Source: a virus
Virus record (IMG/VR): IMGVR_UViG_3300042502_000959
Span: 1-64,000 of that record
Length of the DNA stretch: 64,000 nt
Reading direction: 5' to 3' (one strand)
The notes beneath the pieces were generated by a model, which saw only the letters and a program-made list of their open reading frames with translations, did no database searches and was not told the DNA's origin. Positions 37,302 through 61,773 of the stretch are shown in pieces; position 1 is the first letter of the stretch; each line of letters opens with the position of its first letter. A program made the position numbers and the translations under genes.

Positions 37302-39347
37302 ATGTCCGATTTTTTCTCCTTCAGACTTCCAGTAGATTTTGTTGAAAAATACACTACTGTAGAGGCACCATTTGGTTTCAAAGACGCAGGAGAAAACTCC
37401 ATTGGAGAAATTACTTTTGCTAGAACTTACTCTCGCATCAAAGAAGATGGAACCAAAGAACGCTGGTATGAAGTTTGTAGGAGAGTTATCGAGGGTATGT
37501 ATTCTGTCCAGAAAAATCATGCAAAAGACAACCGCCTTCCATGGAATGATTACAAGGCACAGAAGTCTGCACAAGAAGCTTTTGACCGCATGTTCAATCT
37601 AAAGTGGACCCCTCCAGGACGTGGCATGTGGACTTTTGGAACCCCACTAACAATGGAGAAGAGAAACTCTGCAGCACTACAGAACTGTGCTGTTGTGTCT
37701 ACAAAAGATTTGGATAAGAACGACCCAGGAGCTTTGTTTGCTTGGGTAATGGATGCTCTAATGCTCGGCATTGGTGTCGGCTTTGATACCCTTGGACAAG
37801 ATAAGGCGTTTCCAATTCACGCACCAACTGAGCCAAAGGTGGTCTACGAAATTCCAGACACTCGTGAAGGCTGGGTAGAGGCAACAAGACTACTTCTTAA
37901 CTCATTCTTAAGACCAAACCAAAACATTCAGGAGCTGGACTACTCTCTTATTAGACCGCTGGGTGCACCAATCAAGGGCTTTGGAGGAACTGCTTCTGGA
38001 CCAGCACCACTAAAGCAGCTTCACGAACAAATTAGCAAAGTAATTGGAGGACGTGCTGGAGAAACCCTAGACTCTCGTGCAATTGTAGACATCATTAATC
38101 TTATTGGAACTTGTGTTGTTTCTGGAAACGTTCGTCGTTCTGCCACATTAGCTTTGGGAGTAGAGGGAGACGACGACTTCTTAAACTTAAAAAATGCAGA
38201 AGCCTTCCCAGAGCGTAACAGCTATGACTCAAACAATCCAGGCTGGGCATGGATGAGCAACAACTCTATCTCTGCTACTGTTGGCATGGATTACTCAAAG
38301 TATGTAGATCGTATTGTAGATAACGGAGAGCCAGGATTTATTTGGTTGGATGTTGCTCGTAACTACGGACGTTTGGCTGACCAGCCAGACGGTGCAGACT
38401 ACCGTGTAGTAGGCTTTAATCCGTGTGCAGAACAGCCACTAGAGTCCTATGAGCTCTGCACCCTAGTTGAAGTACATCTAAACCGTCACGAGTCCAAGGA
38501 GGACTTCCTACGGACCCTGAAGTTTGCTTACCTATATGGTAAGACCGTTACTTTGTTGCCAACTCACTGGCAACAGACCAACGGTATCATGCAAAGAAAC
38601 CGTAGAATTGGAACATCCCTAACTGGCATTGCATCATTTGCGGATGAGAATGGTCTTCCAACTGTTCGCAACTGGATGGATGAGGGGTATAACAAGATCC
38701 GTTTCTATGACAAGAAGTATTCTGAATGGTTATGTGTTCGTGAATCAATTCGTGTGACTACCGTAAAGCCATCTGGATCAGTATCCTTGCTGTCAGGTGC
38801 AACCCCTGGAGTTCACTGGGGACCAGGTGGGGCCTTCTACCTACGTGCCATTCGTTTTGGAAACACAGACCCAATGCTACACCTATTTAGGGCAGCTGGA
38901 TACAGGTGTGAGGATGATCTGGTATCAGCAAATACTACAGTTGTATACTTCCCAATTAAGTCTGGGCAGAAACGTAGCGAGAAGCAGGTCTCTTTGTTTG
39001 AAAAGATGTCTCTTGCTGCAACTGCCCAAGAGTATTGGTCGGACAACGGGGTATCAGTAACCCTATCCTTTGACAAAGAAACAGAAAGGCAGCACGTATC
39101 ATCTGTTCTTAATATGTATGAGGGCAAGCTAAAGGCTGTATCATTCTTGCCAATGGGCAACAAGGTGTATCCACAGCAACCATACACAGAGATTACAGAA
39201 GAAGAGTATGACTACTTTATTGGTCGCATTGCCAAGATTGACTTCTCTGCCATTTATGACGGGGTAGACAATTTAGAAGCACTTGGAGAATCGTACTGTA
39301 CAACAGACTACTGCGAGATCAAGATTCCAGACAAGAGGGCAAAGTAA
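37302..39347 (+). CDS. nrdJ: Class II (adenosylcobalamin-dependent) ribonucleotide reductase
   Basis: This 681-residue single-chain reductase makes dNTPs using adenosylcobalamin as radical source. Visible landmarks are the redox Cys in QNCAVV (Cys129), FNPCAEQP with the thiyl-radical Cys375 and Glu377, Cys386 in CTLVEV, and a C-terminal Cys pair (about 666 and 671) for re-reduction. There is no separate R2 gene nearby, and the size and motifs match the monomeric triphosphate reductase type. A thioredoxin gene follows by one base. The window also carries a cobalamin adenosyltransferase (61186-61773). Confidence 0.93.
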   Translation: MSDFFSFRLPVDFVEKYTTVEAPFGFKDAGENSIGEITFARTYSRIKEDGTKERWYEVCRRVIEGMYSVQKNHAKDNRLPWNDYKAQKSAQEAFDRMFNLKWTPPGRGMWTFGTPLTMEKRNSAALQNCAVVSTKDLDKNDPGALFAWVMDALMLGIGVGFDTLGQDKAFPIHAPTEPKVVYEIPDTREGWVEATRLLLNSFLRPNQNIQELDYSLIRPLGAPIKGFGGTASGPAPLKQLHEQISKVIGGRAGETLDSRAIVDIINLIGTCVVSGNVRRSATLALGVEGDDDFLNLKNAEAFPERNSYDSNNPGWAWMSNNSISATVGMDYSKYVDRIVDNGEPGFIWLDVARNYGRLADQPDGADYRVVGFNPCAEQPLESYELCTLVEVHLNRHESKEDFLRTLKFAYLYGKTVTLLPTHWQQTNGIMQRNRRIGTSLTGIASFADENGLPTVRNWMDEGYNKIRFYDKKYSEWLCVRESIRVTTVKPSGSVSLLSGATPGVHWGPGGAFYLRAIRFGNTDPMLHLFRAAGYRCEDDLVSANTTVVYFPIKSGQKRSEKQVSLFEKMSLAATAQEYWSDNGVSVTLSFDKETERQHVSSVLNMYEGKLKAVSFLPMGNKVYPQQPYTEITEEEYDYFIGRIAKIDFSAIYDGVDNLEALGESYCTTDYCEIKIPDKRAK

Positions 39348-41068: not shown

Positions 41069-41479
41069 ATGTACGAATATCGAGTAAAGCAAGTGCTAAG
41101 AGTCGTTGATGGCGACACTATTGACGTTGATCTGGACTTAGGCTTCAACATCTCTTATACCCAGCGAGTTCGTCTAGCAGGTATTGACACCCCAGAATCA
41201 CGCACAACTGACAAAACAGAAAAAGCTCTAGGGCTAGAGGTCAAAAAGCACTTGAGCGATCTTTTAAAATCCGCAACTCAGACTGTTATTCGCACTGAAA
41301 AGCCAGACTCTACTGAAAAGTATGGCCGCATTTTAGGTTGGATATTTTTAGACGGGTCAAGCGAATCAGTTAATTCTGCATTAGTTGCAGAGGGGTATGC
41401 GTGGGACTACATGGGAGAAACAAAAGTAAAAGACTTTGAGCTGCTAAAGCAAAGAAGGAAGAAGGAGCAAAATAAATGA
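41069..41479 (+). CDS. Staphylococcal-type thermonuclease (SNase)
   Basis: This 136-residue protein has the SNase landmarks RVVDGDTIDV (about 11-20), RLAGIDTPE (about 35-43) and KYGRILGW (about 87-94), which supply the Asp and Arg catalytic residues. It has no evident signal peptide, so it probably acts in the cytoplasm, for example on host DNA or RNA. It follows the secreted protein and overlaps the next gene by four bases. Confidence 0.85.
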   Translation: MYEYRVKQVLRVVDGDTIDVDLDLGFNISYTQRVRLAGIDTPESRTTDKTEKALGLEVKKHLSDLLKSATQTVIRTEKPDSTEKYGRILGWIFLDGSSESVNSALVAEGYAWDYMGETKVKDFELLKQRRKKEQNK

Positions 41480-41661
41480 AATTTTTAATAGCATTAGTTA
41501 AGGACGTCATAGAACAGGCATGGACATTGCTTGGTATGGTCGTGGCTTGGCTTGTCTTGGAAGGTTCTGCAAAGGAACTTACAGGAAATCTAATACTAAT
41601 TACCCTATTAGTATGGATAGTAACATTTCCGATTTTTCGTTATGAAAAAGAAGATAAATAG
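41476..41661 (+). CDS. Small membrane protein, holin-like
   Basis: This 61-residue protein has two hydrophobic stretches (about 14-30 and 37-53) and a charged tail. It overlaps the nuclease gene (ATGA) and precedes another small membrane protein. Either could serve as a holin, but size and topology are the only evidence. Confidence 0.5.
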   Translation: MKFLIALVKDVIEQAWTLLGMVVAWLVLEGSAKELTGNLILITLLVWIVTFPIFRYEKEDK

Positions 41662-41679: not shown

Positions 41680-41949
41680 ATGGAACAAGAATATGGAGTA
41701 ACTGGTGGCTGGGCCACAGTTAAGAATATCATCTTTAGGATTGTAGCAGTATTTGCAGCATCTGGACTTACGGTCCTAGGTGCAGGAGCAGTTGTAGGCA
41801 TTGACCTAATTTCTGCTGTGCTAATGGCTGGAATTCTGGGGGTAGCTGCGGTAGTTGAGAAACTAGCACGTTCCTACCTAGATGATGGTAAGCTAACTAT
41901 GGCCGAAATCAACGATGCATTTGCCACAGTTGACAAAAAGTCCAAGTAA
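41680..41949 (+). CDS. Putative holin (two membrane segments)
   Basis: This 89-residue protein has two transmembrane segments (about 19-39 and 43-63), Ala/Gly/Val-rich like holins, and a charged C-terminal tail with KLTMAEINDAF. It follows another small membrane protein and lies 2 kb before the lysin cluster. Holin function is inferred from size and layout. Confidence 0.55.
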   Translation: MEQEYGVTGGWATVKNIIFRIVAVFAASGLTVLGAGAVVGIDLISAVLMAGILGVAAVVEKLARSYLDDGKLTMAEINDAFATVDKKSK

Positions 41950-41956
41950 ATAGCCC

Positions 41957-42012
41957 TTGACAGTCCCCTCTGGGTAGTGTATAATAAACCTATACAAAAC
42001 TTAGAGGGGACT
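41957..42012 (+). promoter_or_regulatory. Perfect sigma-70 promoter with inverted repeat reaching the ribosome site
   Basis: TTGACA (41957-41962), 17 bases, TATAAT (41980-41985) is the full consensus. AGTCCCCTCT (41962-41971, in the spacer) is the exact inverse of AGAGGGGACT (42003-42012), which contains the ribosome site of the next gene. Confidence 0.85.
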
Positions 42013-42017
42013 TTCCT

Positions 42018-42548
42018 ATGACCTGTATAGCCGCTTTGAAGGCTAACGGTAAGGTGTACATGGCTGGTGATCGTGGTGCATCCACTGAAGACAGCATCAT
42101 GCATATATCTAAACCTAAGATTAAAATTGTTGGTCCATATCTAATTGGATATGCTGGAACCATGGAAGGGCAAAAGCTTCAGTATAGCTTTGATCCACCC
42201 AGACCACATCCAGAAGAAGACCTAGATATTTTTATGCACACAACTTTTCTTAAGTACCTTAAAGAGTTTTATGACGAATGGTGGATTGAAACCTCTAAAG
42301 ATGCGGAACTAGAAATGCTAGTCTCAATTGGAGATAAGCTATATGAGCACAGCTCTTCAGATATGTCCATGAATGAATTTTCTTCACACTTCTTATCTAT
42401 TGGATCTGGCTCACCATTTGCAATGGGGTATATGTCAGCAGTGTCTTCTACCAAAATACCACCAGAAAAAATGGTAGAGGGTGCAGTAAAGACTGCAATT
42501 AAATTTTCACCAACTTGCTCTGGCACAGTTGACATTCTTTCTACGTAG
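42018..42548 (+). CDS. Proteasome/HslV-like Ntn peptidase
   Basis: This 176-residue protein begins Met-Thr-Cys. After Met removal the catalytic set falls exactly on Thr1, Asp17 (in AGDRGAS) and Lys33 (in KPKIK), as in proteasome beta subunits and HslV. The hallmark IGSGSPFAMG lies near 127-136 and CSGTVDI near the end; the usual Asp166 appears replaced by Pro. Length matches HslV (about 174) with no propeptide. No HslU, Mpa or Clp-type ATPase is seen in the window, so any unfoldase would come from the host. A consensus promoter drives it. Confidence 0.82.
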   Translation: MTCIAALKANGKVYMAGDRGASTEDSIMHISKPKIKIVGPYLIGYAGTMEGQKLQYSFDPPRPHPEEDLDIFMHTTFLKYLKEFYDEWWIETSKDAELEMLVSIGDKLYEHSSSDMSMNEFSSHFLSIGSGSPFAMGYMSAVSSTKIPPEKMVEGAVKTAIKFSPTCSGTVDILST

Positions 42549-42551
42549 GAG

Positions 42552-42557
42552 TATAAT
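42552..42557 (+). promoter_or_regulatory. -10 box seven bases before a start codon (leaderless promoter)
   Basis: TATAAT at 42552-42557 overlaps the end of the peptidase gene and lies seven bases before ATG 42565. Confidence 0.55.
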
Positions 42558-42564
42558 ATTGGGT

Positions 42565-42825
42565 ATGAATAAAAAAACATTTGATGAATGGCTACAAGAA
42601 GGGCTAGACCTTAACTTTTGTGGCCCAGCAATTTGCTATCCACACGATGGGCTGCCACTGACTCTTGAAGAAGAGCAGGAGTTTGATGACGGAAGCGATC
42701 CTTGCATTCACATCATAAGACTCTACGAAGATAAAGAAACAAAAGTTGCTGTAGAGGATAACCACTCTCCATCTATCTGGAGAGCAACCAATGCTGGATT
42801 TAATTTAGAAGTAAGGAAAGATTGA
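42565..42825 (+). CDS. Hypothetical acidic protein
   Basis: This 86-residue protein has no recognised domain. It holds three Cys (in NFCGPAICYPHDG and DPCIHII) and an acidic middle. ATG 42565 is chosen over the upstream in-frame start at 42529 because the leaderless promoter places the message start there. It follows the proteasome-like gene. Confidence 0.55.
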   Translation: MNKKTFDEWLQEGLDLNFCGPAICYPHDGLPLTLEEEQEFDDGSDPCIHIIRLYEDKETKVAVEDNHSPSIWRATNAGFNLEVRKD

Positions 42826-42946: not shown

Positions 42947-43018
42947 TCCTTCTTAGCTCAGCGGCAGAGCAGAGAGCTGTTAACTCTAAGGTCCCTGGTT
43001 CGATCCCAGGAGAAGGAG
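42947..43018 (+). tRNA. tRNA-Asn (GTT)
   Basis: The acceptor TCCTTCT pairs with AGAAGGA, D stem GCTC with GAGC and T stem CCTGG with CCAGG; the loop CTGTTAA gives anticodon GTT at 42979-42981. The anticodon stem has four good pairs and one G-A mismatch. CCA is not encoded. Confidence 0.9.
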
Positions 43019-43072
43019 CTATTGGTGTGGTCCATACCACTCCCACGGGTATAGGGATAAAAATGGACATCA

Positions 43073-43143
43073 GTGACTATTGCATAGTGGTAGTGCGTAA
43101 CCTTGCCAAGGTTAATGTGCGAGTTCGATTCTCGCTAGTCGCT
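43073..43143 (+). tRNA. tRNA-Gly (GCC)
   Basis: The acceptor GTGACTA pairs with TAGTCGC (one T-G pair), anticodon stem TAACC with GGTTA around TTGCCAA, and T stem GCGAG with CTCGC. The anticodon GCC is at 43105-43107. CCA is not encoded. Confidence 0.88.
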
Positions 43144-43145
43144 CT

Positions 43146-43192
43146 GAGAGTATCCTAGCATGACTCATAAGAACCATTCACTGGGTACTCTC
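43146..43192 (+). other. Hairpin between tRNA-Gly and tRNA-Asp
   Basis: GAGAGTATCC (43146-43155) pairs with GGGTACTCTC (43183-43192), ten pairs with one G-T, around a 27-base loop, followed by TTT. It could be a processing or termination element or a small structured RNA. Confidence 0.45.
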
Positions 43193-43196
43193 TTTA

Positions 43197-43270
43197 GGCT
43201 CTGTAGCTCAGTTGGTTAGAGCGCCTCCCTGTCACGGAGGAGGTCGCCAGTTCAAGTCTGGTCAGAGTCG
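43197..43270 (+). tRNA. tRNA-Asp (GTC)
   Basis: The acceptor GGCTCTG pairs with CAGAGTC (one G-T pair). The D arm has the standard AGCTCAGTTGGTTAGAGC form, and the anticodon loop in CTCCCTGTCACGGAG reads GTC. CCA is not encoded. Confidence 0.92.
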
Positions 43271-43274
43271 CAAT

Positions 43275-43350
43275 GCCTCTATAGCTCATCTGGTAGAGCG
43301 ACGCACTTGTAATGCGTAGGTGACGGGTTCAAGTCCTGTTGGAGGCTCCA
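43275..43350 (+). tRNA. tRNA-Thr (TGT), CCA encoded
   Basis: The acceptor GCCTCTA pairs with TGGAGGC (one A-T and otherwise canonical pairs), and anticodon stem ACGCA with TGCGT around CTTGTAA gives TGT. Unlike the other three, CCA is encoded (43348-43350). Confidence 0.92.
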
Positions 43351-43379: not shown

Positions 43380-43385
43380 AAAAGT

Positions 43386-43946
43386 ATGATCCTTACCAGA
43401 CCTTTTCCAAACACAGAAATCATTGTAATAAAAGAGTTTGCAAGTGAAGAGGAAAATTCTATTATCTATGAATATCTTTATTCTATGTATCTTGCACAAA
43501 AAGAAAAAGATGATTCTTTAAAAAGACTAGATCTTGTAGACAAAAGTTTTGAAACGATTAACAGGTTAGAAAAAAGATACACAGAATTTGCAAAAGAAAA
43601 CCTGTTTTTTGTTGTAGAGCCCAGCTTTACTACTTTAAAAAATTATGTATATTGGGAAGCTGGAAAAGAAATGGCTCCTCATTATGATAATTTTCATGTA
43701 GAACATGCATTTCCAGTAATGTATGGTTGCATATACTATATAAATGATAATTTTAATGGGGGAGAGCTCCACTACCCTGGCTTGGGGGTATCCTATAAGC
43801 CAGTAGCTAGGGACATGCTTATTCATCCAGGCACAAAAGAGTATAGCCACGGAGTAAGGGCGGTAGATGAGGGAGTAAGGATTACTGCTTCGTCTTTTAT
43901 TACCAAAAAAGACATGAGTGATGAAAGATTTACATTTGAGGGCTAG
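43386..43946 (+). CDS. 2OG-Fe(II) oxygenase, prolyl-4-hydroxylase-like
   Basis: This 186-residue protein has the iron-binding motif HYDN (His near 99, Asp near 101), a distal His in EYSHGV (near 155) and a 2OG-binding Arg in VRITASS. GGELHYP and the YYINDNFNGG stretch are typical of prolyl-4-hydroxylase-type folds in phages. Substrate unknown; protein or nucleic acid hydroxylation is possible. ATG 43386 is used because the leaderless promoter fixes it; the longer frame from 43320 would run through the tRNA gene. Confidence 0.82.
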   Translation: MILTRPFPNTEIIVIKEFASEEENSIIYEYLYSMYLAQKEKDDSLKRLDLVDKSFETINRLEKRYTEFAKENLFFVVEPSFTTLKNYVYWEAGKEMAPHYDNFHVEHAFPVMYGCIYYINDNFNGGELHYPGLGVSYKPVARDMLIHPGTKEYSHGVRAVDEGVRITASSFITKKDMSDERFTFEG

Positions 43947-46404: not shown

Positions 46405-46590
46405 ATGCCTATATACGAGTATGAGTGTTCAGATTGCAAGCAACGCTATACGTTTGATCGGGGAATCAATGATAAAGATCCTGGATATGAATGTAAGGCT
46501 TGCAGCCTGAGCCTCACTCGTGTATACTCGTTAGGTGCCGTTACATTTAATGGCAGTGGATTCTATAGAACGGATAGTCGGGCTAAGTAA
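46405..46590 (+). CDS. FmdB-like zinc ribbon protein
   Basis: This 61-residue protein starts MPIYEYECSDC and has a second CKAC pair, giving four Cys for zinc; the end, FNGSGFYRTD, is characteristic of the FmdB family. Such proteins are small regulators of unknown target. There is no ribosome site; TGC-TAAAAT at 46386-46391 would give a leader of only about 7 bases. Confidence 0.75.
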   Translation: MPIYEYECSDCKQRYTFDRGINDKDPGYECKACSLSLTRVYSLGAVTFNGSGFYRTDSRAK

Positions 46591-46591
46591 A

Positions 46592-47404
46592 ATGAAGACC
46601 CCAGAAATTATTAATTTTATAAGCATCCAGGACATCTCTGACAACATCTCTTTATATAAGGATATTCTTATTCGGGATGGTGTTTTGGTTTTTAGGGATG
46701 CAAATCTTTCCCACGAAGATCACGGAATAGTTAGCAATAATATAAATAACCATTTTGGTATATATGACGAGGGAGATTTTGATGGATATCTAGAAAATCA
46801 TTCTAAAACCAGTAAAAATAGTTATAAAAAATTCGGTCCAGATGACATAATGTTGCCTTGGCATATAGAGAATCCAACCTACAGTAACCCAATTGTTCTT
46901 GGAGCATGGAACATGCATAAATTTAAAACAAACGAAGAAAATGGCAAAACATATTTTGTAAATAGTAAATTACTATATAAAGAAATGCCAGACAGATTTA
47001 AAGACTTTATTGGTAAGTGTGTAATATACGATGACGTAGCCAGTCGAGGAGAAAAACAAACACATAAAGTGATTCACAGCCACTGGCTAACTAGCGAGCC
47101 AGTAATCAGAACAAGTTTTGTTTATTCAGAAAACAATCAAATCCTTTATTCTGTAGATGGAGAGGTCCCTTCTGTAAATGACCTCATCATCTATGACGAG
47201 GCCATGACTTGGATACGTAATCAGCTTTATGATAATCTAGACATAAGAATTGTTCATAAGTGGAAGCAGGGAGATCTAGTTATTCCAGATATGTTTGTCA
47301 TGTATCATGCCGTTACTGGAGGATTTACCCCAGACGAAAGAGAGTTTGTTGGCATTTGGAGTCGTAGAGACAAAAAAAATGTGGAGGTACAGAGTGATAG
47401 GTGA
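46592..47404 (+). CDS. TauD-like 2OG-Fe(II) dioxygenase
   Basis: This 270-residue protein has WHIENP near 89-94 (His and an acidic ligand, HxE instead of the usual HxD), a distal His in MYHAVTGG near 237-240 and Arg in REFVGIWSRR. An N-terminal segment (VFRDANLSHEDH) fits the TauD/TfdA fold. The substrate is unknown. ATG 46592 starts two bases after the zinc ribbon gene. Confidence 0.72.
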   Translation: MKTPEIINFISIQDISDNISLYKDILIRDGVLVFRDANLSHEDHGIVSNNINNHFGIYDEGDFDGYLENHSKTSKNSYKKFGPDDIMLPWHIENPTYSNPIVLGAWNMHKFKTNEENGKTYFVNSKLLYKEMPDRFKDFIGKCVIYDDVASRGEKQTHKVIHSHWLTSEPVIRTSFVYSENNQILYSVDGEVPSVNDLIIYDEAMTWIRNQLYDNLDIRIVHKWKQGDLVIPDMFVMYHAVTGGFTPDEREFVGIWSRRDKKNVEVQSDR

Positions 47405-48405: not shown

Positions 48406-48627
48406 ATGGTCATCAAAACAATTGAAGAAATGGAAAAGTTTGTTTCATCAAACAAAAATTTTTCTTGGGACGGTTGGACTGTTTTAAAAACATATAAGTC
48501 TGATAAGGCTAGAACATCTTCTAGTGGCGTCTGCATTAGCGGAGACTGGTTTATCCAGGAAAGGTTCGCTCCTGGTATTGATGGCTGGGTTATTCCAGAA
48601 AGTATAGTTCCCAATGGGAAGGCATGA
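48406..48627 (+). CDS. Hypothetical small protein
   Basis: This 73-residue protein has an N-terminal helix and Trp-rich strands (FSWDGWTVLKTY, GDWFIQERF). ATG 48406 is preferred over 48343 because it avoids the overlap with the preceding gene. It overlaps the WhiB gene by 14 bases, so it may be its coupled partner. Confidence 0.5.
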   Translation: MVIKTIEEMEKFVSSNKNFSWDGWTVLKTYKSDKARTSSSGVCISGDWFIQERFAPGIDGWVIPESIVPNGKA

Positions 48628-48901
48628 GTGGAAAGATGAAGGCTCGTGCAAGGGCTACGACACAAATCTATTCTTTGATAAATATGAAGAAGATATTGCC
48701 CTTCGTCCTGCGATTGACAAACTTTGTGCTGGTTGTCCAGTATCAAGGCAGTGCTTTGCTGTCGGAGTTTCTCAAAAAGAATGGGGAGTCTGGGGAGGAA
48801 TATTTCTTGAAAATGGAAAAATATCTAGAGAATTTGCCAAGCATAGAAGCAAAGAACAATGGGCCGAAACTTGGAAGAGCTTAACGATGGAGGATAACTA
48901 A
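48614..48901 (+). CDS. whiB: WhiB-family Fe-S transcription factor
   Basis: This 95-residue protein has four Cys at 12, 38, 41 and 47, with the family spacing CxxCxxxxxC, and the GVWGG turn at 58-62, then a basic tail with a SREFAKHRSKEQW helix. WhiB proteins bind a 4Fe-4S cluster and the main sigma factor in actinobacteria; phage versions can redirect host transcription. The family is confined to actinobacteria and their phages, which identifies the host phylum. Confidence 0.93.
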   Translation: MGRHEWKDEGSCKGYDTNLFFDKYEEDIALRPAIDKLCAGCPVSRQCFAVGVSQKEWGVWGGIFLENGKISREFAKHRSKEQWAETWKSLTMEDN

Positions 48902-50193: not shown

Positions 50194-50904
50194 ATGTCTA
50201 ATTTAAAGGTTGCAATAGTAATGCTGACTTGGCAAAGACTAGAAAGGTTGCCAGAGTCTTTAGAAATGCTGTCTAAGCAAACTAACAATAATTTTTCTTT
50301 ATATATCTCTAATTCAAACCTTGAGGAGATTTCCAGGGTAGAGGAGTTGGTAACTCCATTTAAACAAAACCTAAGTATTAATCTTACACATGATAGCAAT
50401 GAGCTATATTCCTTTAGACGGCTCTTCATAGGGAAAGATCTAGCAGAAAAAGGCTTTGAGGTAATCTTGTTTTTAGATGATGACGTAATAATCCCAGAAA
50501 ACTATGTGGATCAATTGCTAAACCATTTTGAACCAAACTCCTACAAATCAGCTTACGCTTGGAAATTTTTAGAGAATGGTAAAAACTATTACAGAAATCG
50601 TGTCAGAATAGATAATGCCAACTCGAAAGTTCATTATTGCGGTACAGCAGTATCTATAATAGATGCCAAAATATTTTTAGAAAATGGACTATTTGCTGTT
50701 GATTCAGAAGTACATAAAATAGAAGACCTCTGGATGTCTTACTATGCAGACCATGTTCTTGGATGGAAGCTAGAGTATATTCACATAAACAATCTGTCTA
50801 TTGGTGGCAATGATAGCGTTGCCCTGAGTAAATTAGTAAAAAGAGACAGAACCAATAAAGCTGTTCTTTTAAGAAAACTAGTTGGTACTGGCTGGAAGAT
50901 TTAA
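50194..50904 (+). CDS. GT-A glycosyltransferase (GT2-like)
   Basis: This 236-residue protein has an N-terminal nucleotide-binding strand (VAIVMLTWQR) and the metal motif FLDDDVIIP near 88-96, as in family 2 type glycosyltransferases. It has no signal peptide. It faces the minus-strand glycan cassette and overlaps its end by 27 bases. A TAGAAT box at 50179-50184 lies nine bases before the ATG, giving a 2-3 base leader. Confidence 0.8.
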   Translation: MSNLKVAIVMLTWQRLERLPESLEMLSKQTNNNFSLYISNSNLEEISRVEELVTPFKQNLSINLTHDSNELYSFRRLFIGKDLAEKGFEVILFLDDDVIIPENYVDQLLNHFEPNSYKSAYAWKFLENGKNYYRNRVRIDNANSKVHYCGTAVSIIDAKIFLENGLFAVDSEVHKIEDLWMSYYADHVLGWKLEYIHINNLSIGGNDSVALSKLVKRDRTNKAVLLRKLVGTGWKI

Positions 50905-51924
50905 AAGAATATCTAAGTATTTTTGCTTTAAAGATTCGCTAGAAAACTTTGAATATCCAACATCAAAAGCTGCCTTTTTTGCTTCTGTTTGATCATTAGA
51001 CATATAATGATCTATCTTGGCTGCAAGCAAAACTGGATCGGCAGAATAGACATCTAGCATAGTCCTTGTCATTAGCTCACCTACCTTGTGAGACGCTACA
51101 AGCCAATCTGAGGGCAGAACTTGGTTGTTTGGTGATATATCAGTCATAAAGACTGGCAGGCCGCTCAGGAGCGCCTCATTCATTGGCAGGCATAGTCCAG
51201 CATATCTTCTTGGCAAGATCATTGCGTCGTATCCAGAATATAAGTCCTTCTGGTCTTTAACGTTATCAGAAATAATCTTAATTCTATCGTCATTTATGTT
51301 GTATTCAAGCTTATCTTGGCATCTAATCTCTAGGGTAAAGTCTTCTTTTGAATATTTCATCATTTCAATTACTGTATCTGTACCGTTTCTATCCATCACA
51401 GCAACTTTTCCAGCAATATGCAAAAGCTTCCTTGTTGATCTTGAATTTATTTTCCTGACATCTTCGAATGTTCTATGGTCGGTTGGTGGTGGTAGGTGAA
51501 TTACACTACAAGATTGACCAAATTTTCTTACAACGTCATCCAGATTCCACTTACTTGGAGATAACAAGATGTCTGGTAGTGCCAGCCTAGGGCTTTGCAA
51601 ATTATCTAAAAACTCATAGTTATATTGTAATATAGTCTTAACACCACTTTGCTTAGCTAACTTTGGAAAATTTTTATTATAGAAAATTTCACAACTAATG
51701 ACTACGTCTAGATTTTTTAAGAACTCTAGGGCCACTGAGTCACCAATAAAACCTAGATTAGTCTGGACATTGTAGTTGCTATACCAGTCTGGATTTTGTG
51801 TATTTTGATTAAAAGAGCTAGAGTCTATTAGCAATATTTTGCTAGGATTTAGCATGTATGCTAATTCTCTAGTCTGATTCCCCAAGCCAGAATTATCTGA
51901 TCTAGCAATAAGTCCTATTCTCAT
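50878..51924 (-). CDS. GT-B glycosyltransferase
   Basis: This 348-residue protein (start ATG at 51924, complement) begins MRIGLIARSDNSGLG and has a C-terminal GT4-like part (about 210-300) with an acidic-plus-GLCLPMNEALLSGLP segment that contacts the sugar nucleotide. The longer frame to 52029 is rejected because ATG 51924 overlaps the upstream stop (ATGA). It is last in the minus-strand cassette. Confidence 0.82.
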   Translation of the reverse strand: MRIGLIARSDNSGLGNQTRELAYMLNPSKILLIDSSSFNQNTQNPDWYSNYNVQTNLGFIGDSVALEFLKNLDVVISCEIFYNKNFPKLAKQSGVKTILQYNYEFLDNLQSPRLALPDILLSPSKWNLDDVVRKFGQSCSVIHLPPPTDHRTFEDVRKINSRSTRKLLHIAGKVAVMDRNGTDTVIEMMKYSKEDFTLEIRCQDKLEYNINDDRIKIISDNVKDQKDLYSGYDAMILPRRYAGLCLPMNEALLSGLPVFMTDISPNNQVLPSDWLVASHKVGELMTRTMLDVYSADPVLLAAKIDHYMSNDQTEAKKAAFDVGYSKFSSESLKQKYLDILLNLPASTN

Positions 51925-52586
51925 AGATCCATTTCTTTGTATAGCTGCTTCAATCCTTTTAGTGTTCCAATGTCCATATACTTGCCACCAGGCCTTACCG
52001 CTCTGATGTCGGCACTGTTGGATAACCATTCTTTTAGTTGTTTTCCAGGGTGGTCTAGCGTTGTGTCTAAGTGTTTAATCATGTTTTTACTAAACATCAT
52101 GGTTCCCCACATGTCTAGGTAATCACAATTTTCTACCTTATCTTCAGACTGGATTACTTTATTGCCAGACAATAATACCTGCCCAACACGACCCTTTAAC
52201 TCATCTGTGCATTCCCAAACGCCCAAGACTAAGTCGGCATCTGTCTCTTTCATCATTTCTTTATAAATGTTTACTGGTGTATTTATTATGTAGGTATCTG
52301 GCATACCAACAAGTATAGTATCGTTATAGTCACCAACCATAAATTTAATTGCATCAGACATTGTGGTAGGTTCACGAACAATTAGCTTAATGTTCATGTC
52401 CATATTTTGTACAATAGGAACCCACTCAGGCCTAGTTGATACACGAACTTCATCGCATACTTCTAGCATTTGTTCTACATGCCACTGAAGCAAAGATCTT
52501 TCATCCGAAATAGGCAAACAAAATTTTGGTATACCACCAATTCGAGATGCTTTTCCAGATGCTGGTAAGACTCCTATTGTATGCAT
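51921..52586 (-). CDS. Sugar-phosphate nucleotidyltransferase
   Basis: This 221-residue protein starts with the nucleotidyltransferase signature LPASGKASRIGGIPKF (about 7-22), here with Ser in place of one Gly of the usual GxGxR loop, and has MPDTYI near 95 for metal binding. It would form an NDP-sugar that supplies donor for the neighbouring transferases. It overlaps its neighbours by one and four bases. Confidence 0.8.
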   Translation of the reverse strand: MHTIGVLPASGKASRIGGIPKFCLPISDERSLLQWHVEQMLEVCDEVRVSTRPEWVPIVQNMDMNIKLIVREPTTMSDAIKFMVGDYNDTILVGMPDTYIINTPVNIYKEMMKETDADLVLGVWECTDELKGRVGQVLLSGNKVIQSEDKVENCDYLDMWGTMMFSKNMIKHLDTTLDHPGKQLKEWLSNSADIRAVRPGGKYMDIGTLKGLKQLYKEMDL

Positions 52587-53374
52587 TAGCTTAAACCATA
52601 ATTTTTCTTTAGAGTAGCTATATCATTGACTGGCCAGTAGTCTAAAGATTTAGTAGGATCATTAAATGGATACTTATATTCTCCCCAGCCTTCTCTTGTT
52701 CTATCCCCACCCCATTTAGACTTAAAGTAATCATGAACACCGTCAATATTTATCTTTAGACCATCTATTGTTGCACCACCATCTACCTGACATGTAACAT
52801 CAACCTCTGCCGTTGCAGCACTAATTCTCATAACATAACTTATTGGGGTATTAGAGTGTATAAACTGACTACGCCAGGATACTACAAGGTCTGATTCAGT
52901 ATCTGGCATAGACTGTTCTTCAAGCAGTCTGCACCTATGATCCCAGTCACAATCATCAAAGTTATATGGATAAAAGTTTTCATCAAAATATCCAATTGCA
53001 CTAACCAGCTTCTTGTTTATTCCACAAAGATGCCATCCGTGTTGTGTTCTAAACATTACACCATTAAATCCTTTAAGCATTTCAATAATGTGTGAAAAGG
53101 GCTGATTAAACAACATTGAAGAGGAGACAACAAAAGTCCAATCATGGTTCTTTTTTAATGCGATGTTCCATGCTCTTGCTAGCCCAATATTTTCCGACTG
53201 ATACTCTACCTGGAACCCGTATTGTTTTTCAAATACTTCGCATTCTCTATTGCCACTATTATCTATAAGCAAAACATTTTTATCTTTTATGGACTCCATG
53301 CATTTGTAAATTCTCTCTGTTACTTTATAGATGGGAATACAAATTAAATAATCAATTTTGGTATCTGTTTCCAT
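52586..53374 (-). CDS. GT2-like glycosyltransferase
   Basis: This 262-residue protein has a GT-A start (YLICIPIYK), an LLIDNSGN loop and NIGLARAWN near 62-70, all usual for family 2. The metal motif is not a clean DxD, with acidic YNFDDCDWDHRC near 138-149. It overlaps the methyltransferase by 23 bases. Confidence 0.75.
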   Translation of the reverse strand: METDTKIDYLICIPIYKVTERIYKCMESIKDKNVLLIDNSGNRECEVFEKQYGFQVEYQSENIGLARAWNIALKKNHDWTFVVSSSMLFNQPFSHIIEMLKGFNGVMFRTQHGWHLCGINKKLVSAIGYFDENFYPYNFDDCDWDHRCRLLEEQSMPDTESDLVVSWRSQFIHSNTPISYVMRISAATAEVDVTCQVDGGATIDGLKINIDGVHDYFKSKWGGDRTREGWGEYKYPFNDPTKSLDYWPVNDIATLKKNYGLS

Positions 53375-54050
53375 AAATATACCCCCCTCTTTCGGGGCTT
53401 CCTAAAATTTCTAAGCCAAACTGCTTAGCTAATTTCTCAACCATGATTCCAAATTTGCCGTCAAAAGACTTATCAAACTCAAGCACTAAATAATTAATTT
53501 TTGCAAGTATTTTTTCGGGGGCATTAATTATAAGATCAAACTCTGCACCCTCAATGTCAATCTTCATAACTTCAACACGCTTAATGTTATTCTCTTTAAA
53601 CAGCTTTTCCAATGTGATTGCCTGGATCTTTGTTTGCTCAACACCTTCGATTTCAAAAATGCTGCTATTTCCACCACGATTAGTTATTAAAACTTCTTTA
53701 TTCTCGTGCCAAATTGCTTTATTAATAACGGTAACATTCTCTACTGGATTGTCTTCTATGTTTTTCTGCAAAAGAATTAGGTTATGTGGCTCAGGCTCAA
53801 TAGCAAAGACCCTGATCTTTCTTTTTCTATCTTTATTAAAGTTGTCAACAAAAAGACTTACGGAGCCAACGTTGGCACCAATATCAACAAAAACAGCATT
53901 TTTATTTTTAGCAAAGTGCCATTGATGAATTCTATAAACGTTTTCATTCCAAGTTTCTTCAATAACCTTCCAGTCCAGGTCGTGATCATCGCTTGGATCA
54001 TGCTCTTCATCTCGCAAATTAAAGACATAGCCGTTAGTTTCTAAAATCAT
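53352..54050 (-). CDS. FkbM-family methyltransferase
   Basis: This 232-residue protein has FVDIGANVGSVSL (SAM-binding loop), FAIEPEPHN and VEVMKIDIEGAEFDLI, the standard FkbM motifs. FkbM enzymes O-methylate sugars and similar substrates. ATG 54050 is chosen because it overlaps the upstream stop (ATGA). It may cap the glycan made by the cassette. Confidence 0.87.
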   Translation of the reverse strand: MILETNGYVFNLRDEEHDPSDDHDLDWKVIEETWNENVYRIHQWHFAKNKNAVFVDIGANVGSVSLFVDNFNKDRKRKIRVFAIEPEPHNLILLQKNIEDNPVENVTVINKAIWHENKEVLITNRGGNSSIFEIEGVEQTKIQAITLEKLFKENNIKRVEVMKIDIEGAEFDLIINAPEKILAKINYLVLEFDKSFDGKFGIMVEKLAKQFGLEILGSPERGGYIYGNRYQN

Positions 54051-54988
54051 AGGTTTAATTCCTTTAAGATATGCTGCCATCTATTTTTATAGGTGTAGTT
54101 GTTTTTGACCATGTCGTGACCAGACCTTCTAATTTCTTCACGTTCTTCTTCGTGCTCTAAATAGTATTCAATTAATTGGTTTAGTTGATCTAAATTATTA
54201 TACTCATAAAATACTACATGCTTCTTATCTTCAAATTCTTTTTCAAGACCTGGGATATAGGGGTGAATCAAGAAGCCACCACGACCAAGGGTTTCGTAGA
54301 TCCTGTCGGACCAATAGTCTGGGTAGTCAAAGTTTGGACATAGAGTATCTCCAACTACAATCTTAGTAGAAGCATACAAGTTGTTTAGCTCTTGTCCTCT
54401 TACAACCCCAAGCCCTTCTTTTCCATATAAATTAAACCTTGCTCCATATGTCTGACTTAAAAAATTAATAAGCTTTGGTCTATAAGGCCACTCTGCATGA
54501 TAAGTTTTACTTCCAACAAAAATAATTTCTTCTTTTGGAATAGCTGGTGTGTAAACACACTCTTTATCATATACCCCAGCTGGTAAGTAGTGACCTTTTA
54601 CGGATGTTCGTGTATTAAACCAATCAGCCATTTTGTTATCTACGGTAAAAAAGTGATCTATAAATTGATACACTGGCTTACGCAACAAATCTCTTTGTCT
54701 GTTTAGCCCAAGCCAAAGGTCTAAGTGGTAGGTCATGCTCGGAACGTTATGTTTTTTTAACTCAATCAGCATGTCTTGCATCGTAAGTCTTCCTGGGGTA
54801 TCCCAGCCATGAGTATGGACCCAAACAAAAAGATCGCTGTTTATTGCATTGTTAAAAATATCTTCAGCGGTTGCTTCGCTTTCTTGCATCCTAACAACCT
54901 GATGTCCCATAGACTCTAAAGTTTTTGTGTGATGTGTTTCGGTACTATAGTCTACTCTAAAATTTCCTAAGAATGTTATTTTTGCCAT
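54047..54988 (-). CDS. Glycosyltransferase (CgeB/GT1-like)
   Basis: This 313-residue protein begins MAKITFLGNFRVDYSTETHH and has a C-terminal donor site with SDRIYETLGRGGFLIHPYIPG (about 230-250), then a coiled helix end (EEREEIRRSGHDMV...YTYKNR) typical of CgeB-like transferases. The frame to 55078 is not used since ATG 54988 follows the upstream gene closely. Confidence 0.8.
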   Translation of the reverse strand: MAKITFLGNFRVDYSTETHHTKTLESMGHQVVRMQESEATAEDIFNNAINSDLFVWVHTHGWDTPGRLTMQDMLIELKKHNVPSMTYHLDLWLGLNRQRDLLRKPVYQFIDHFFTVDNKMADWFNTRTSVKGHYLPAGVYDKECVYTPAIPKEEIIFVGSKTYHAEWPYRPKLINFLSQTYGARFNLYGKEGLGVVRGQELNNLYASTKIVVGDTLCPNFDYPDYWSDRIYETLGRGGFLIHPYIPGLEKEFEDKKHVVFYEYNNLDQLNQLIEYYLEHEEEREEIRRSGHDMVKNNYTYKNRWQHILKELNL

Positions 54989-55001
54989 ACTATTTCCTAT
55001 A

Positions 55002-55592
55002 TTAGATGCGAATAGCCTTAGCAAAAACAACTCTAGATGCCATTTTAGATGCTGCAATAATTGCGATAGGAGCAGCAATGCTCAGAACTGTTCCTGCCCA
55101 CATGCGTGGCTCCAAGTATTCCCATGCCCAAAAGTCGAGGGTATGGAAAGCATTTGCCAAAACAGCAATGCCACCAAACATTAGCATTCCAACAACAGCA
55201 CCAAGCGTTTTTTCTGGCTTGCCGTCTTCATTCATTCTAGAAGCAAGAACTAGGTATGCAACCAAGAACAATAGGTACATAAGCTCAATAAAGAAAAAGA
55301 ATAGTCCAGCCATCCAGCTCTGAGAAAGGCCAACAAATTCTGCAACAGCTGTAATACCATTAAAAGAGACAATAGCAGAAGAAATAAAGGCAATCCCAAT
55401 TCCTATAAGCCATGTCCAAAGAATTATCTTTTGATCAATCTGAATTTTTGGAGCACGTTTTGATTCCTGTAGCTCATAGCGCTGTCTTTTGGTATCTTCT
55501 ACACGTCTCACAGTAGCCTCTTGACTGTTTGGATTGTTGACTTTATCGGCAAGAACTTGTTGCCTTCTTCTAAATGACATAGGATTACTCAT
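55002..55592 (-). CDS. Four-segment membrane protein
   Basis: This 196-residue protein has a charged N-terminal 50 residues and four membrane segments (about 57-78, 93-117, 132-150, 163-183). It is first in the minus-strand cassette and is led by TGG-TATAAT nine bases before the ATG. It could anchor or export the glycan product; no family is recognised. Confidence 0.65.
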   Translation of the reverse strand: MSNPMSFRRRQQVLADKVNNPNSQEATVRRVEDTKRQRYELQESKRAPKIQIDQKIILWTWLIGIGIAFISSAIVSFNGITAVAEFVGLSQSWMAGLFFFFIELMYLLFLVAYLVLASRMNEDGKPEKTLGAVVGMLMFGGIAVLANAFHTLDFWAWEYLEPRMWAGTVLSIAAPIAIIAASKMASRVVFAKAIRI

Positions 55593-61019: not shown

Positions 61020-61186
61020 AAACAATAACAGATAAGTTTGATGCAATTATTGAATATCAAGACTTTAAGAAGCAAAGCTGGATAGAGGCTACCACGCCCT
61101 ACCTCCAGGTTGCTTTTAGCCTTCTTGCACTATTTGCATCTAACGATCTGTTGGTTACAATCTGGCGTTCGATGACGGGACACTAA
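61016..61186 (+). CDS. Small single-pass membrane protein in the cobalamin operon
   Basis: This 56-residue ORF overlaps the DUF4430 gene (ATGA) and the adenosyltransferase start (TAATG). It has a charged N-terminal half and one membrane segment (about 29-50). The double overlap supports a real gene. It might anchor or pass on the corrinoid; no family is recognised. Confidence 0.6.
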   Translation: MKTITDKFDAIIEYQDFKKQSWIEATTPYLQVAFSLLALFASNDLLVTIWRSMTGH

Positions 61187-61773
61187 TGGTAAACCTAACT
61201 CGAATTTATACTAAGACTGGTGATGATGGCACTACCTCTTTGGGGGACATGAGTCGTACATCAAAGAATGATCCAAGACTTGAGGCTTTTGCCACGGTAG
61301 ACGAAGCCAACTCTGTCATCGGAGTAGCCATTCTACATGTAGTTAACCAAGACGTTAGGAATATCCTTAATCAGATACAGAATGACCTGTTTGATGTAGG
61401 AGCAGACTTATGTACACCAGTGATAGATAATCCTCCTGTAGAGCCTCTGAGAGTTACTGAGGGCCAAGTTAGCAACCTTGAGTCCCAGATAGACAGATTC
61501 AATGCAGAGCTGGATTCTCTCAGGTCTTTTGTTATTCCTGGAGGAACTGCCTCATCTGCCAACCTGCATGTTGCTAGGACTGTAGCTCGTCGTGCAGAAA
61601 GACTTACCTGGAATGCTATTCACCAATTTGGCGAGGGTGTAAGTAAACTAACCGCAAAATATTTAAACAGACTATCAGACCTACTATTTGTATTAGCTAG
61701 GTATGAGAATAAGTCCGTAGGAGACGTCTTATGGGTTCCAGGAAAAAATACATTAGGAGAAACAAATGGCTAA
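61186..61773 (+). CDS. pduO: PduO-type cob(I)alamin adenosyltransferase
   Basis: This 195-residue all-helical enzyme moves the adenosyl group of ATP to cob(I)alamin. It begins RIYTKTGDDGTTSLGD (ATP loop), continues FATVDEANSVIG, and has FVIPGGTASSANLHVARTVARRAER (about 115-140), the Arg/Glu signature of the PduO family. Length is normal. In this genome the product, adenosylcobalamin, is the cofactor of the class II RNR. Confidence 0.93.
   Translation: MVNLTRIYTKTGDDGTTSLGDMSRTSKNDPRLEAFATVDEANSVIGVAILHVVNQDVRNILNQIQNDLFDVGADLCTPVIDNPPVEPLRVTEGQVSNLESQIDRFNAELDSLRSFVIPGGTASSANLHVARTVARRAERLTWNAIHQFGEGVSKLTAKYLNRLSDLLFVLARYENKSVGDVLWVPGKNTLGETNG

Follow-up and report, generated by a model that had tools for sequence, protein, structure and literature searches.

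The stretch of viral DNA analysed here (the window: 64,000 nucleotides, positions 1 to 64,000 of IMG/VR record IMGVR_UViG_3300042502_000959) carries a gene for a proteasome/HslV-like Ntn peptidase and, directly upstream of it, a perfect promoter that lies within an inverted repeat whose RNA is predicted to hide the ribosome-binding site of the same gene. The explanation that we consider probable is that of a phage Ntn peptidase insulated from its surroundings by a promoter-in-hairpin switch and expressed early. Computation establishes the family, the fold and the catalytic residues of the peptidase as well as the conservation of promoter and hairpin. The peptidase is not of a new kind, as phage proteasome homologs have already been described; the unexpected part is the expression device, which is testable. 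The elements concerned are the following:

41957–41985, plus strand: perfect sigma-70-type promoter of the peptidase gene, TTGACA-17-TATAAT (from sequence; conserved in relatives)
41959–42015, plus strand: inverted repeat or RNA hairpin enclosing the -10 box and predicted to hide the ribosome-binding site (from folding and conservation)
42004–42009, plus strand: putative Shine-Dalgarno sequence GAGGGG in the 3' arm of the hairpin, eight bases 5' of the ATG
42018–42548, plus strand: proteasome/HslV-like Ntn peptidase, 176 aa, with a mature N-terminal Thr (from profiles, fold and alignment)

The promoter, TTGACAGTCCCCTCTGGGTAGTGTATAAT, matches the sigma-70 consensus with a 17-base spacer; perfect consensus promoters number four in the window, versus 0.07 expected. 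In the main stem of the hairpin, 41962–41975 pairs with 41999–42012: the spacer AGTCCCCTCT pairs with AGAGGGGACT, which holds the putative Shine-Dalgarno sequence. The hairpin RNA has a predicted energy of -30.6 kcal/mol (z -6.0; the relatives that were folded range from z -4.5 to -7.5), and the peptidase leader is the most stable among 110 ORF starts of the window (mean -9.9, sd 5.0). Promoter and hairpin are kept in ten of the eleven distinct members of the peptidase's clade that were examined, with TATACT replacing TATAAT in three of these ten; the remaining member, L029, has neither. Standard pairs fill 95% of the hairpin pair cells, a share that never exceeds 64% once the partner is shifted along; there is little covariation, with a single pair altered in both of its bases, and the promoter spacer and Shine-Dalgarno signals contained in the arms could explain why the arms are conserved. 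A pattern search located the element at one place per record, at the peptidase gene, in six of seven relatives, the seventh record (G002) carrying a variant sequence that escapes the pattern. No Rfam family was found at the hairpin, and a role as intrinsic terminator was rejected: only three T follow the stem, which is absent from the terminator scan. Stable start-region hairpins of about -25 kcal/mol are also seen in two other homologs, at L046 3380–3444 and L091 14935–15001 (an IMG/VR phage and DSL-LC01). The promoter and the hairpin had no place in the original prediction, which dealt with the peptidase.

Judging from the predicted structures, this arrangement could control the gene in the following manner: RNA that reads through from upstream would fold into the hairpin, leaving the Shine-Dalgarno sequence hidden and the gene silent, whereas RNA from the gene's own promoter, starting near 41992, would be without the 5' arm and would be translated. 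The predicted mean probability that the Shine-Dalgarno sequence is unpaired is 0.42 in the own-promoter RNA, which thus opens it only partly, versus 0.00 in the read-through RNA. The peptidase gene would thus be insulated from the genes around it. In phage T4, promoter-in-hairpin arrangements are documented for e and I-TevI, while soc and 49 have structures at their start regions that inhibit translation (PMC3014915; PMC2988022). As in gene e and I-TevI, a read-through hairpin would hide the Shine-Dalgarno sequence, the promoter resides in the 5' part and the gene's own RNA would be open; the hallmark of a T4-type switch, a Shine-Dalgarno sequence in a stable stem with the 5' arm upstream of the own transcript start, is found in the window by prediction. 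In T4, the embedded promoter is late and early translation is blocked, whereas the sigma-70 consensus in the window suggests that the order is probably reversed. From the vegetative consensus of the promoter we infer early expression of the peptidase and silence of the read-through RNA; the protein would most likely be an early product that depends on host RNA polymerase in its unmodified form, with no contribution from read-through.

The inverted repeat might instead act at the DNA level, as an operator to which a repressor or activator binds, or be an RNase III site, and not hide the ribosome-binding site at all, a reading that we regard as rather unlikely. It would account for near-palindromic DNA that overlaps the promoter spacer and for the CCCCTCT and GAGGGG cores being the best-conserved part. 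On the other hand, 22 of the 140 hairpin pair cells are G.U, which is acceptable in RNA but mismatched in DNA, and the T4-type arrangement provides a close precedent for the switch; moreover, each genome has the element at a single place, so that a regulator would have no second site.

The gene behind this proposed switch is an ATG-start ORF at exactly 42018–42548 on the plus strand; its 176-aa product begins with MTCIAALKANGKVYMAGDRGAS, Met directly preceding Thr with no propeptide. Its length had been said to fit HslV without a propeptide, and E. coli HslV is indeed also 176 aa counting the initiator. The protein matches PHROG 1040, 'peptidase HslV family', over its full length (E 1.9e-20, residues 1–175) and passes Pfam PF00227 at the border (23.6 bits versus a curated cut-off of 22.4), a match that is absent from a separate six-frame search listing. 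NCBIfam HslV is matched at E 1.1e-5, far under the equivalog cut-offs (25.2 and 24.1 bits versus 157.75 and 137 for TIGR03692 and NF003964), and the cut-offs of the 20S proteasome beta models TIGR03634 and TIGR03690 are likewise missed (17.8 and 16.6 bits versus 224 and 191.9). The gene is carried by 20 IMG/VR loci at 63–100% identity, with a dN/dS of 0.03–0.13 between the window copy and the tested set, a sign of purifying selection, and can therefore be taken as real and selected; a register read of the opposite strand reveals no long open frame. PF00227, PHROG 1040, the conserved loci and the Ntn fold described below bear out the proposal of a proteasome/HslV-type peptidase on a phage. The HslV-type label survives for the proteasome/HslV family as a whole; HslV proper it is not, because the score is far below the HslV cut-off and there is no hslU.

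The Ntn fold, on which the original prediction hinged, is obtained at high confidence with AlphaFold2 (mean pLDDT 90.4, pTM 0.87; 32 aligned phage sequences). The model contains six strands between residues 3 and 46 and the helices H1–H4 (49–57, 69–87, 132–142 and 149–163) without insertions and without a C-terminal helix; H1 is short and is followed by a conserved PPxP...EDLD segment. The top solved match in Foldseek is BPH (5ovt, TM 0.81), then HslV (6kui, 1g3i; about 0.72–0.73) and proteasome beta, and 40 phage proteins in a viral structure library match the model at E <= 0.001, some of them named HslV or proteasome. Shared with BPH and HslV is the predicted fold, and with HslV also Thr1, Asp17, Lys33 and Ser129; the window peptidase differs in having about 20% identity to them, no HslU partner and a shorter H1.

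Once Met is removed, Thr1, Asp17 and Lys33 occupy the positions typical of the family, as had been claimed, and Ser129 of the IGSG motif is also at a proteasome-family position. Thr1 and Lys33, whose lack of conservation had been named beforehand as grounds for refutation, are invariant in 40 of 40 aligned rows, E. coli HslV included. In the same alignment, position 17 carries Asp except in four rows of the window clade, which have Glu there, and position 129 is occupied by Ser, Cys or Thr; within the clade, Gly46 and Ser129 are invariant. The family's Asp166 had been reported as replaced by Pro: the Asp is missing, but alignment to relatives with the canonical D-x-x-S-G (D-I-Y-S-G-G) places its column at Ser163, with the Pro directly after it. 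No member of the window clade has an Asp in this column, nor does E. coli HslV, and since the latter is also without it, the loss says nothing about activity or altered chemistry. The protein is a genuine and probably active phage Ntn enzyme and would be classed as a phage-borne N-terminal-threonine peptidase of group I (BPH/HslV/AAH-like).

Two kinds of proteasome homologs, PPH and AAH, have been described in phages by Fuchs, Alva and Lupas in 2021, who identified neither a function nor an AAA+ partner, reported no genomic context suggesting a function and found no AAH-bearing actinophage (PMC8665760). PPH comprises about 140 residues and lacks helix H2 (PMC8665760); this identity was rejected for the window peptidase, with its 176 aa and H2 (69–87). 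Like AAH, the window peptidase occurs in a phage and has H1–H4 and no propeptide, insertion or S12/H5, a shape common to BPH and HslV and hence not diagnostic. The fit to AAH is provisional, by shape and nearest bacterial hosts, in comparison with the published description; if the assignment holds, the window phage would be an AAH-bearing actinophage. The nearest bacterial matches lie on rhizobial, Paraburkholderia and Streptomyces plasmids at about 30% identity. In the tree, the window clade is sister to rhizobial and Streptomyces plasmid and T5-like sequences, themselves AAH by host only, and forms a separate deep branch (stem length 1.04) with about 21–33% identity to the others. Homologs on rhizobial and Paraburkholderia plasmids are those at L103, L104, L107 and L102, and the Sinorhizobium americanum homolog is situated among nitrogen-fixation genes (nifQ, nifS) and rpoN. 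Two contig scans with strict patterns found no homolog at home on a bacterial chromosome, and a search with the gene of one clade member found no nucleotide-level relative in named phages.

Members of PHROG 1040 from T5-like, Vibrio, Aeromonas and Moorella phages resemble the window peptidase in the full-length family match, in being phage-borne and in that no hslU is seen, but have about 21–30% identity to the window clade, and many of them carry Ser/Thr with VGSG or VGCG where the clade has Gly46 with IGSG. A gene named 'nucleophile aminohydrolase' that adjoins the Vibrio R16F homolog was discarded, being no family member by alignment. Homologs are also found in the actinophages DSL-LC01, Arthrobacter Hum25 and Pitbull, Microbacterium Pumpernickel and Planktophila phages E7 and F5 (OX376640, LanE43-AprE7, is by name and size phage E7 of PMC10202952; OX376641 fits F5 by size); those that have an annotation are called 'protease' or 'HslV'. 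They share actinobacterial hosts and Thr1/Asp17/Lys33 with the window peptidase (Pitbull and F5 are outside the alignment), whereas those placed on the tree belong to a different branch.

In the cell, host methionine aminopeptidase would expose Thr1, and the subunits probably form a ring whose chamber would hold the Thr1/Asp17/Lys33 sites. The peptidase would need no dedicated phage unfoldase, taking substrates that are unfolded or loosely folded or relying on a host factor; ring assembly, activity and an early trimming of host proteins are inferred. Family scans of the window found no HslU or other unfoldase, its large ORFs having other functions or no family match, and the AAA and AAA_2 profiles have no match in relatives of 112,370 and 124,540 bp; the earlier statement that no unfoldase gene is present thus holds for the window and for this pair of relatives. 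One weak AAA match apiece occurs in two other relatives. The missing unfoldase gene, together with H1 shortened to 49–57 and the conserved segment behind it, could also speak for a monomeric or small-assembly Ntn enzyme, that is, a ligase or specific processing enzyme akin to connectase, instead of a ring protease. We consider this unlikely: H1–H4 are all predicted, without insertions, the best solved matches, BPH and HslV, are ring formers, and connectase is without H1–H2 and has an insertion (PMC8665760).

The surroundings of the gene bear on the time at which the peptidase would be made:

41476–41661, plus strand: p41476, small protein with two hydrophobic stretches, 61 aa, holin-like by inspection, upstream of the peptidase in the clade
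41680–41949, plus strand: p41680, another small protein with a pair of hydrophobic stretches, 89 aa, likewise holin-like by inspection, immediately before the peptidase in the clade
42529–42557, plus strand: another perfect promoter, which overlaps the 3' end of the peptidase gene and reads into p42565
42565–42825, plus strand: p42565, 86 aa, downstream of the peptidase in the clade (from order conservation)

Loci of the clade retain this gene order, with the two small membrane proteins first, then the peptidase and then p42565. Conceivably, then, the peptidase is a late, lysis-linked helper that processes structural or lysis proteins: the p41476–p41680–peptidase order persists across the clade loci, and three cell-wall hydrolases follow downstream, with M23 and amidase-like genes. 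This is improbable, as the perfect vegetative promoter and the read-through block would uncouple the gene from the lysis genes, and several relatives in other phages are without annotated adjoining lysis genes. Downstream, p42565 was set aside as a dedicated partner of the peptidase: the clade keeps it, but it has no family match. Its message is probably leaderless because the ATG lies only seven bases past the -10 box. The overlapping promoter may add to the conservation of the last codons of the peptidase.

The window encodes a tape measure protein, tail proteins, terminase, primase, helicase and DNA polymerase; the DNA polymerase (55.7%) and the terminase (about 55%) are identical to those of Streptomyces phages at these levels over their full length. 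Record G000, at 67 kb, may be a fragment. A further gene marks the host:

48614–48901, plus strand: WhiB transcription factor, a marker of actinobacterial hosts (profile match, 47.4 bits)

WhiB genes are held to be exclusive to and universal in Actinobacteriota (PMC10202952). WhiB, DNA polymerase and terminase support the suspected actinobacterial host, and with a GC content of 40% for the window, a low-GC actinobacterium is the best reading of the sequence. The suggestion that the protein might replace or poison a host Pup-proteasome finds no support here; the scan of the ORFs revealed no gene resembling Pup, Mpa or ARC. It is highly improbable that the protein is a decoy or poison without catalytic activity that enters host proteasome or HslV rings and blocks them, a reading to which the short H1 and the change of Asp17 to Glu in some relatives would lend themselves, since Thr1 and Lys33 (40 rows) and, in the clade, Gly46 and Ser129 are invariant, dN/dS is 0.03–0.13, and an identity of about 20% to HslV and proteasome beta makes mixed rings unlikely.

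Several side features of the phage were recorded. In several unrelated phages, the peptidase homolog has a gene for ribonucleotide reductase or thymidylate synthase no more than a few kb away, an observation without background control (the window, 37302–39347; L026, L025, L021, L024, L093, L106; L050, L058, L084). The window phage combines a cobalamin adenosyltransferase (61186–61773) with the ribonucleotide reductase (37302–39347) and thioredoxin, which suggests that the reductase is of the B12-dependent class II. Four tRNA genes (Asn, Gly, Asp, Thr) at 42947–43350 lie downstream of the peptidase region, and two dioxygenase-like genes, of the 2OG-Fe(II) oxygenase and TauD families, at 43380–43946 and 46586–47404. 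Glycosyltransferases, an NTP-transferase and an FkbM methyltransferase occupy the minus strand at 50878–55078 and possibly serve surface or DNA modification.

Phage proteasome homologs have been catalogued for years. The gene-specific switch predicted and conserved in this clade is a clue to when production of the protein is called for and when it is not, and the peptidase gene is placed in a further actinophage lineage. Tentatively, this lineage may use a switch-controlled peptidase, made only by unmodified host polymerase early in infection and silenced on read-through RNA, that would reshape the host proteome and spare the phage proteins made later. The role of a phage proteasome subunit would thereby become a question for the bench, with a predicted time of action.
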